Assembly (NCBI GenBank): GCA_016188625.1
Contig: JACPHL010000276.1
Location: 1-5,562, forward strand
Source: Candidatus Rokuibacteriota bacterium
Lineage (GTDB): Bacteria > Methylomirabilota > Methylomirabilia > Rokubacteriales > JACPHL01
Length of the DNA: 5,562 nt
Direction of reading: 5' to 3'
Position numbers and translations under genes: made by a program. Of this stretch, positions 1,892-4,154 are shown in pieces. Under the pieces are notes generated by a model. That model was not told the origin of the DNA. It made no database searches and saw nothing but the letters and a program-made list of their open reading frames with translations. The first letter of the stretch is position 1. Every line of letters starts with the position of its first letter.

Positions 1892-1908
1892 GCGCAGGAG
1901 GTGAGCGC

Positions 1909-3105
1909 ATGGCGAGGAGGGTCGGGATCGTGGGCGCCGCCGTCACCCCCTTCAGGGCGAAGTGGTACGAGAAGACGTACTACGAGCTGGCCCAGATGGC
2001 GACGCGGGAAGCCCTCCGGGACGCGGGGATCTCGCCGCGAGAGGTGGACGCGGTCGTCTACGGCATCTACAACGATATCTTCCAGCGGGCGTGCATCCCC
2101 GAGCATCCCCTCCAGGGCGTTCTCGGCCTCCCCAACAAGCCCGGGGTTCGGGTATCCAACGGCGGCGCCACGGGCGCGTACGCCATGTCCGTGGCCCACG
2201 CCTACGTGGCCGCGGAGCGCTACGACGTGGTGCTGGTCCTGGGCGTGGAGAAGGCCACGGACTGCTTCGACTTCACCTCCATGTCCTCGACGCCGGAGGT
2301 GATCAAGACCATCGGCTGGTCCGGCGACAGCTTCTTCGAGCAGAAGATCGGGTGGACGGCCTCGGACAGCTACGCCGAGGTGGTGCTGGCCTACATGGAC
2401 GAGCACCCGGGGGACCTGAAGCCGGAGGTGACCGCCCGGATCTCGTCGCTCCTGAGCCGGCAGGCCCGCGACAACCCTTACGCCCAGCGCCAGCTCGACC
2501 AGGTCACCCCGGAAGAGGTCATGAACTCCCGCTACATCGTCTACCCGTTCAAGGAGCTGGAGATCTGCGTCTACAGCGAGGGCGCCGCGGCCGTCGTCCT
2601 CGCCTCGGAGGAGCGCGCCCGGGCCATGGCGCGGAACACGGGCACGCCGGTGGTCTGGATCACGGGCGTCGGCGAGGCCAACGAGCACTCCTTCGCCGGC
2701 CGGAACCAGAACCGCTGGGGCCGGATCTACTCGCACCACGTGGCCGCCCAGCGCGCGTACCGGATGGCCGACGTCACCGATCCGCTCAAAGAGATCGACG
2801 TGGTCGAGCTTCACGACGCCTTCGTGCAGCAGCTGGAGATCAGCATGGCCGAGATGGGGTTCGTGCCCCCGGGGCGGGCGGACGCGCTCGTCGAGGATGG
2901 CATCATGATGCCGGGCGGCGAGCTGGCGGTGAACCCGAGCGGCGGCCTGCTCTACTGCGGCCACGCGGTCGGGGCCAGCAACATCATGTCGGCGTGGTCC
3001 TGCCGGAACGAGATGATCCGGAAGGGCTACCGGCGGGGCCTGGTCCACGGCACCGGCAGCACCATCGCCCAGTACGGGGTCGTGCTGCTGCTGGAGCGGG
3101 AGTAG
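1909..3105 (+). CDS. Thiolase-fold (SCP2/acetyl-CoA acetyltransferase-like) protein lacking the nucleophilic Cys; possible aldolase
   Basis: 398 residues, the usual length for the SCP2-thiolase-like family. AGGAGGTG at 1896-1903, 5 bases before the ATG, fixes the start. The N terminus RRVGIVGAAVTPFR and the DAGISPREVDAVVYG segment are typical. The nucleophile loop reads NGGATG (84-89), so the position normally held by Cys in C-A-T-G or C-S-G type loops appears to be Gly86. The catalytic-base regions remain: ELHDAF (His302) and GGLLYCGHAVGA (His352). The last glycine-rich turn HGTGST (380-385) lacks the second Cys of classical thiolases. Classical thiolysis should therefore not work. Thiolase-fold aldolases such as Ltp2 in steroid side-chain degradation lack this Cys and work with a DUF35 partner, and a DUF35 gene follows here 11 bases on. 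Retro-aldol cleavage of a 3-hydroxyacyl-CoA is my inference. A DUF35-bound condensing enzyme or a BbsB-like role is the alternative. Confidence 0.8.
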   Translation: MARRVGIVGAAVTPFRAKWYEKTYYELAQMATREALRDAGISPREVDAVVYGIYNDIFQRACIPEHPLQGVLGLPNKPGVRVSNGGATGAYAMSVAHAYVAAERYDVVLVLGVEKATDCFDFTSMSSTPEVIKTIGWSGDSFFEQKIGWTASDSYAEVVLAYMDEHPGDLKPEVTARISSLLSRQARDNPYAQRQLDQVTPEEVMNSRYIVYPFKELEICVYSEGAAAVVLASEERARAMARNTGTPVVWITGVGEANEHSFAGRNQNRWGRIYSHHVAAQRAYRMADVTDPLKEIDVVELHDAFVQQLEISMAEMGFVPPGRADALVEDGIMMPGGELAVNPSGGLLYCGHAVGASNIMSAWSCRNEMIRKGYRRGLVHGTGSTIAQYGVVLLLERE

Positions 3106-3116: not shown

Positions 3117-4154
3117 ATGAGGGCACGGTCGGCCCGACGCAAAGAGGGGAAGGCAGAAAAGGTCATCCCGCTTCGATTCATCCCCGACAGGGAGGCGAAG
3201 GTCCGGGGGGTGGACGGGACCAGGTGCCTCCTCATGAATGACGCCTTCTACACCTTCTTCGAGCGGAGCATGGGGGAATTCTCCCCGTTCTTCCTCGCCA
3301 TCCGGGACGAGAAGAAGATCCTGGGCTGCCGGTGCCCGCGCTGCGGCCTGGTGCGGGTGCCCCCGTTCGTGACCCACTGCCCGGACTGCGACTACGCGCC
3401 GACGGAGCTCACGGAGGTGGGCCAGGTGGGGCGCCTGATCAGCACCCCGCCGATCACCTACTTCGCCACCTCCCTGTTTCTGGACCGGGCGCCCTTCGGC
3501 CGCGGGCGGGTCGTGCTGGAGGGCGCCGACACCGCCTTGAGCGTGATGCTCTACACGACCACGGGGATCCTGACGCCCGGGATCCTCCAGAAGGGGACCG
3601 AGGTGAAGGTCGTCTTTCGGGATCGCCGGCTGGGCGAGATCGCGGACATCTTCTGCGTGCCCACCGCCGAGCTGACCCCCGGGCAGATCGCCACGCCGGG
3701 GCTCGAGGAGTCGGAGCTCCCCTGGGCGCGCGCGCGGGCCCCGAAGTTCGACAGGCCGAGCCGGGACGAGGTCCGGGCCTACCGGGAGTGCCTGCGGGAG
3801 ATGCGCGCGCTTGCGCGGGCGATGAGTCGCTCCCGGCGCGCCCGGAGCGCCATCCTCGGGTGGAAGCGGAACATCGCGGTCCGGACCAAGGCCGGGGAGT
3901 TCGCCATGGTCATCGACGACGGCGACCTCAGGATCGTCGAGAAGAAGCTCCGGGCCCCCGACTTCATCATGGCGTGCGAGGACCCCCGCGCGCTCCTGGA
4001 CGGCCTTGCCTACCGCGGGGCGTTCACCGACGCGGTGATCCTGAAGAAGATCTGGATCGACAAGAACGAGGAGTTCAACACGATCTTCAAGCTCGACCGG
4101 CTGGCCCGCTTTCTCGCCAGGGAAAAGAAGGAGCGTGCGGCCCGGCAGACGTGA
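3117..4154 (+). CDS. DUF35 zinc-ribbon/OB-fold protein with C-terminal SCP2-like domain
   Basis: 345 residues. Residues 40-70 form the N-terminal helix region usual in DUF35 proteins (FYTFFERSMGEFSPFFLAI). A zinc ribbon follows: CRCPRC (71-76) and CPDC (88-91), so four ligands are likely Cys73, Cys76, Cys88 and Cys91, with an extra Cys71. Residues about 97-185 match the OB-fold, with GQVGRLIST, the GRVVLEGAD strand and GTEVKVVFRD. DUF35 proteins bind thiolase-fold partners and help hold the CoA ester (archaeal acetoacetyl-CoA thiolase/HMG-CoA synthase complexes, BbsA, ChsH2). After an Arg-rich linker (about 205-245), residues 246-335 resemble an SCP2 lipid-carrier domain: FAMVIDDGDLRIVE, a PDFIMACEDPRALLDGL helix and a KIWIDKNEEFNTIFKL ending. 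That assignment is by pattern only. It is translated right after the thiolase-fold gene, so the two probably form one complex. The N-terminal 30 residues are basic and look disordered. Confidence 0.8.
   Translation: MRARSARRKEGKAEKVIPLRFIPDREAKVRGVDGTRCLLMNDAFYTFFERSMGEFSPFFLAIRDEKKILGCRCPRCGLVRVPPFVTHCPDCDYAPTELTEVGQVGRLISTPPITYFATSLFLDRAPFGRGRVVLEGADTALSVMLYTTTGILTPGILQKGTEVKVVFRDRRLGEIADIFCVPTAELTPGQIATPGLEESELPWARARAPKFDRPSRDEVRAYRECLREMRALARAMSRSRRARSAILGWKRNIAVRTKAGEFAMVIDDGDLRIVEKKLRAPDFIMACEDPRALLDGLAYRGAFTDAVILKKIWIDKNEEFNTIFKLDRLARFLAREKKERAARQT

Follow-up and report, generated by a model that had tools for sequence, protein, structure and literature searches.

The window, i.e., the whole stretch of DNA analyzed here, is one entire contig of 5562 bases from a fragmented genome assembly (344 contigs, 84% complete). 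The features discussed below are as follows.

2-934, upstream of the thiolase-like gene: EB_dh gene, with an ethylbenzene-dehydrogenase-type domain (PF09459)
985-1563, after the EB_dh gene: protein with a signal-like N terminus, weakly similar to Phenol_MetA_deg
1896..1905, + strand: ribosome-binding site AGGAGGTGAG of the thiolase-like gene, read in the sequence
1909..3105, + strand: Cys-less thiolase-fold protein of 398 aa (exact ORF; Pfam Thiolase_C_1 and Thiolase_N)
2155..2175, + strand: nucleophile loop SNGGATG, residues 83-89, with Gly86 at the place of the nucleophilic Cys
2566..2568, + strand: Cys220, the sole Cys invariant in the family
2812..2823, + strand: HDAF motif with His302 and Ala304
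2959..2964, + strand: Gly351-His352 (GHAVGA)
3046..3063, + strand: HGTGST turn, residues 380-385, with invariant His380 and Gly383
3117..4154, + strand: DUF35-SCP2 fusion protein of 345 aa, separated by 11 bases from the end of the thiolase-like gene
3264..3716, + strand: DUF35 (zinc ribbon and OB fold), residues about 50-200, from invariant zinc ligands and fold match
3774..4121, + strand: SCP2 sterol-carrier-fold domain, residues about 220-335, from fold match

Both the thiolase-like and the DUF35 gene are preceded by a good ribosome-binding site. The last gene of the window, downstream of the DUF35 gene, encodes the alpha subunit of a 2-oxoacid:ferredoxin oxidoreductase; it is unsupported as a functional partner of the pair, other loci having no clear counterpart. 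A functional link with the upstream EB_dh gene is likewise unsupported, and neither the EB_dh domain nor the Phenol_MetA_deg-like gene is seen beside the pair at other loci. The contig itself could be a stray in its genome.

The predicted model of the thiolase-like protein (pLDDT 84.5) has the thiolase fold, the best solved match being 6esq_A (Z 49.0, rmsd 2.4, 371 residues), and both the HD and GH motifs of thiolases are present. At the same time, no named thiolase or lipid-transfer family of NCBIfam reached its curated cut-off: the best was NF004720 (212.8 bits vs. 420), while the Ltp-type NF005892 scored 108 against a cut-off of 469 and the BbsB family 80.6 bits against 750. The motifs SNGGATG (83-89), HDAF (His302), GHAVGA (His352) and HGTGST, as well as Cys350, all lie where the first-pass annotation had placed them. 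Its central claim, that Gly replaces the expected nucleophilic Cys, is confirmed: Gly86 aligns with this Cys when the protein is compared with solved thiolases or with Cys-bearing relatives, and GGATG, HDA, GH, His380 and Cys220 are unvarying in 27 aligned copies from different genomes. Hence no aligned family member has a nucleophilic Cys in the N-terminal loop. Gly86, His302, His352, and His380 are invariant in 27-28 copies, so that both thiolase histidines are indeed retained; the third invariant histidine, His380, had been overlooked in the first reading.

Among these changes, the missing nucleophile is the only uncommon one. The HGTGST turn does lack Cys, as had been noted, but this is not telling, because many relatives that keep the nucleophile have no Cys there either; similarly, the change of HDCF to HDAF is no sign of a new reaction, since HDAF also occurs with the nucleophile present (e.g., in 7yvy). 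Cys350, situated in YCGH, had been named as an example of a Cys whose presence at the nucleophile position would speak against a changed reaction. It can be dismissed as a substitute nucleophile, the column being occupied by Ser, Gly, or Ala in relatives.

The proposed pairing with a DUF35 protein is borne out as well: almost all relatives have the two genes side by side, and the four zinc ligands of the Cys4 ribbon (C73, C76, C88, C91) are invariant. Pfam zf-ChsH2 scores 21.1 on this protein, slightly under the gathering score of 23.2. In the predicted model (pLDDT 80), the zinc ribbon is followed by an OB fold that matches several solved DUF35 proteins; the top match is 9myr_B, the DUF35 part of Shy (Z 12.6; 1.0 above the next row and thus nearly tied), and 6ok1_B, the DUF35 part of ChsH2, follows with Z 11.2. 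The C-terminal part, overlooked in the first reading, has the SCP2 fold, with Z about 10 over about 100 residues to several solved SCP2 domains (3cnu, Z 10.5; 3bn8_A, Z 10.4); by sequence the resemblance is weak, Pfam SCP2 being found in two relatives at E 0.005 and 0.022.

A scan of bacterial and archaeal genomes yielded 31 relatives of the thiolase-like protein at 54-84% identity, all from metagenome-assembled genomes. By record title, they belong to Chloroflexota/Dehalococcoidia, Bacillota, Acidobacteria, Nitrospirae, Nitrospinae, Deltaproteobacteria, and Actinomycetes. Each carrier genome has one family copy, not counting much more distant paralogues. Of 294 genomes from one Chloroflexota class, 13 carry the family, as do none of 58 further genomes from the order to which the window belongs, and this patchy distribution suggests spread by horizontal transfer. 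Purifying selection acts on the gene, as dN/dS comes to about 0.08 against the nearest relative (0.106/1.32) and to about 0.06 against the next (0.134/2.33), values that are approximate, coming from two pairs with dS near saturation. Since the motifs are fixed across relatives in several phyla and dN/dS is this low, decay, be it a pseudogene or a sequencing error, is ruled out for the window copy. Together with the near-constant DUF35 partner, these data give good support to the earlier view that the missing Cys reflects a changed reaction. In-frame stops or frame breaks occur in some other copies of the family gene (L033, L034, G342:C15:2422-3396, and G348:C96:34932-35906), which are either pseudogenes or assembly errors.

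In the phylogenetic tree, the family forms one clade (support 100/100), and its sister consists of other Cys-less proteins from the same Chloroflexota class (100/99). Copies of the sister group, 35-38% identical to the window protein, lie at G112:C33:29629-30819, G064:C232:52691-53830, G114:C32:6815-8005, and G096:C81:3111-5420 (loci L082, L089-L092, L099-L102). They have Ala or Gly at the nucleophile place, HD[L/F/I] or NDI, and a conserved GH; several of their loci contain CaiB-type CoA-transferases, and in one (L101) two Cys-less thiolase-like genes stand in tandem, one gene of a tandem having NDI for HD. The DUF35 partners of the sister group are short (about 160 aa) and have no SCP2 domain; hence the DUF35-SCP2 fusion is particular to the window family among the loci examined. 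A clade uniting the family with Ltp2 to the exclusion of the sister group is rejected (p-AU 0.0005). A wider single Cys-less group (support 45/75), and with it one common loss of Cys for all Cys-less rows, is neither shown nor rejected.

Two thiolase-fold enzymes with DUF35 partners and Gly in place of the nucleophilic Cys have been characterized as retro-aldolases, TcLtp2 and CtSal (PMC12329534). The steroid retro-aldolase TcLtp2-ChsH2 (6ok1) thus shares with the window pair the fold, the Gly, and the DUF35 partner. However, its catalytic residues are Tyr294, in YDHF, and Tyr344 (PMC12329534), whereas His302 aligns with Tyr294 and Ala304 with His296 in the profile alignment, and His352 with Tyr344 in the multiple alignment. 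The Ltp2 relatives collected here, which match 6ok1 at E 5e-215, accordingly read YDHF and GEAYIHG at these places. In the bile-acid aldolase CtSal-CtShy (9myr), Gly89 occupies the nucleophile place and Tyr302 and Cys304 of YDCY are catalytic, with Gln352 at the third position (PMC12329534); the window protein has His302, Ala304, and His352, respectively, and HDAF for YDCY. The partners differ as well: the DUF35 of ChsH2 is fused to a MaoC-type hydratase and CtShy doubles as a hydratase, while the window DUF35 carries SCP2 instead, and no MaoC is present among the annotated neighbors. The likeness to Ltp2 drawn in the first-pass annotation therefore stands for the missing Cys and the bound DUF35, but does not extend to the catalytic tyrosines, and orthology to Ltp2 is ruled out by the alignment (Tyr to His) and the tree.

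Other members of the fold are no closer in their active sites. The archaeal acetoacetyl-CoA thiolase of the thiolase/HMG-CoA synthase/DUF35 complex (6esq) is the best fold match and also binds a DUF35 subunit, but it has a nucleophilic Cys and HDCF, neither of which is found in the window protein. Benzoylsuccinyl-CoA thiolase BbsAB (7pxp), likewise a DUF35 and thiolase pair, keeps the nucleophile (NVQSACSAG) where the window protein has Gly. Among Cys-less thiolase-like proteins, Mycobacterium smegmatis TLP1, in which Cys89 is replaced by Gly102 and the histidine motifs are lost (PMC3406046), has YSCF, GGL, and NGG in contrast to HDAF, GHA, and HGT of the window family, and Trypanosoma brucei TbSLP has YDCF instead of HDAF. 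Thus, none of the characterized proteins compared here was found to pair a Gly at the nucleophile place with both thiolase histidines. Its mirror image is a "lipid-transfer protein" from a Sphingopyxis plasmid (L048:5004-6194), where the nucleophilic Cys is kept (ACAAGA) and both histidine motifs are absent (IADN, FGEA).

The neighborhoods of the pair are rich in genes of CoA-thioester metabolism. An acyl-CoA dehydrogenase is near or adjoins the pair in 10 loci, and CoA-transferases, acyl-CoA ligases, CaiB-type CoA-transferases or SDR enzymes are found near it in others. Two kinds of gene occur near the pair more often than chance would allow, namely acetoacetate--CoA ligase (3 loci; TIGR01217, clearly above cut-off) and 3-oxoacid CoA-transferase (5 loci; TIGR02428/TIGR02429, above cut-off). 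Three of the 10 ligase copies are within 10 kb of the pair, vs. 0.07 expected (P 5e-5), as are 5 of the 33 transferase copies, vs. 0.31 expected (P 2e-5, or 3e-4 with two close relatives counted once); these P values are optimistic, as both genes were picked after being seen as neighbors. The incomplete genome of the window yielded neither gene. No hydratase, MaoC or crotonase, was seen among the annotated neighbors. Two seemingly recurrent neighbor clusters (3 and 17) lie opposite the thiolase gene and were discarded as shadow ORFs. An HpaB-type protein of the 4-hydroxyphenylacetate 3-hydroxylase family is encoded near the pair at L014:10813-12137, with related ORFs in L033 and L106. On a nearly complete Chloroflexota chromosome (L104, 6624-8156 and 10841-13671), a family member stands beside a TLP1-type thiolase-like protein; this locus also contains two more thiolase-like genes that have no Cys where one is normally found, another DUF35, acetoacetate--CoA ligase, and 3-oxoacid CoA-transferase.

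The thiolase histidines kept here are those that stabilize the acyl-CoA enolate, while the lost Cys is the holder of the acyl group. Such a pattern would permit enolate chemistry without an acyl-enzyme, that is, retro-aldol cleavage, aldol addition, or decarboxylation. Retro-aldol cleavage is favored because both characterized DUF35-bound Cys-less enzymes perform it. By this analogy, the protein may be a DUF35-bound C-C lyase acting without an acyl-enzyme, probably a 3-hydroxyacyl-CoA retro-aldolase with histidines as acid and base, a reading in which our belief and our doubt are evenly balanced; the reverse direction, aldol addition, would be equally covered by it. The aldolase for a CoA thioester proposed from the first reading would fit, and is the best single guess.

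In such a retro-aldolase, with the pocket geometry taken from homology, the SCP2 domain may help to present a hydrophobic acyl-CoA, whose thioester carbonyl would be held by His302 and His352 in the thiolase oxyanion hole. The backbone NH of Gly86 would contact the 3-hydroxyl, as has been proposed for Gly89 in Sal, and the hydroxyl would lose its proton to one of the histidines, most likely His302, which stands where Ltp2 and Sal have their catalytic Tyr. Breakage of the C2-C3 bond would then release a carbonyl product and leave an acyl-CoA enolate, to be protonated by His352 or His380. The linkage to genes that activate acetoacetate and other 3-oxoacids with CoA suggests that the product may be a free 3-oxoacid, as in the HMG-CoA lyase reaction; with less assurance, it might be one such as acetoacetate that needs re-activation.

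The retro-aldolase reading is backed by the invariance of Gly86 and the three histidines, by the low dN/dS, by the alignment of the catalytic positions with those of TcLtp2 and CtSal, by the top, if nearly tied, match of the DUF35 part to that of the Sal-Shy aldolase, and by the CoA-thioester nature of the linked genes. Against it, position 302 has no Tyr, which both known aldolases require, and position 304 is Ala, while replacement of Cys304 by Ala abolishes the activity of Sal (PMC12329534). Further, the neighbors include no hydratase, to which Ltp2 and Sal are physically joined via DUF35; both by sequence and by fold, the protein matches genuine thiolases (6esq) best, not Ltp2 or Sal; and the oxyanion-hole residues are not specific, being expected in any enolate-forming CoA enzyme of this fold.

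Several alternatives follow from the same observations. Ketosynthases with a replaced Cys (KSQ domains) stabilize the enolate arising from CO2 loss, and retention of two histidines with loss of Cys is a known decarboxylase pattern of the wider superfamily. The main rival, in our opinion unlikely, is a malonyl-type acyl-CoA decarboxylase in which the kept histidines stabilize the enolate after loss of CO2; it fits this pattern and would suit Ala304, as no acid or base beyond the oxyanion hole is needed. The Cys-less TbSLP does decarboxylate malonyl-CoA, albeit very slowly, but Sal does not (PMC12329534), malonyl-specific genes were not seen among the annotated neighbors, and neither His380 nor the DUF35-SCP2 partner would be explained. 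Within the retro-aldolase reading, and counted as a part of it, we consider quite improbable the special case of an HMG-CoA-lyase-like enzyme that cleaves a 3-hydroxy-3-alkylglutaryl-CoA to acetyl-CoA and a free 3-oxoacid (acetoacetate), re-activated by the linked ligase or CoA-transferase. This linkage and the acyl-CoA dehydrogenase next door speak for it, and so does the fact that 30 of 34 carriers, the window genome included, have no canonical HMG-CoA lyase scoring above cut-off; as a missing-enzyme argument the latter is suggestive only, since many genomes are incomplete and the lack may just mean that there is no leucine pathway. Moreover, no biotin carboxylase was seen among the annotated neighbors, and two linked-ligase carriers (G072 and G236) have one biotin-type carboxyltransferase each, leaving little room for methylcrotonyl-CoA carboxylase.

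The protein could also still be a thiolase or acyltransferase, with only the nucleophile position moved and the acyl group accepted by Cys220 or a free thiol. In its favor, no aligned family copy varies at Cys220, the nearest solved relatives are acetoacetyl-CoA thiolases, and the linked genes make acetoacetyl-CoA, a thiolase substrate; yet the Cys220 column is often Cys also in thiolases with a normal nucleophile, so that this residue is inherited rather than a substitute, and Cys350 is unconserved, leaving this explanation quite improbable. Least plausible, and in our judgment highly improbable, is a non-catalytic scaffold or half-active subunit supporting another thiolase or a dehydrogenase. 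Tandem or adjacent Cys-less thiolase-like genes in L101 and L104 would agree with such a role, but the active-site histidines are invariant, and the single-copy family gene has no constant second thiolase adjoining it.

Recent work has established that Cys-less thiolase-fold enzymes, all of them with a catalytic Tyr, serve as retro-aldolases in the aerobic degradation of steroids (PMC12329534). While a Cys-less, DUF35-bound thiolase fold is thus known, the linkage of the present pair to acetoacetate--CoA ligase and 3-oxoacid CoA-transferase is new. We tentatively put forward, as a doubtful though not negligible proposition, that the family represents a third, His-based C-C cleavage site without an acyl-enzyme on the thiolase fold, with an SCP2-fused DUF35 subunit, in an undescribed pathway releasing a free 3-oxoacid such as acetoacetate, i.e., a thiolase-fold counterpart of HMG-CoA lyase. 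Similarity-based annotation would label these proteins as acetyl-CoA acetyltransferase or thiolase, in these genomes very probably in error. If our reading is true, the His-keeping family, whose zinc-ribbon subunit bears a domain of the lipid-carrier fold, would constitute a separate reuse of the thiolase fold and would point to an undescribed CoA-dependent step in uncultured bacteria.
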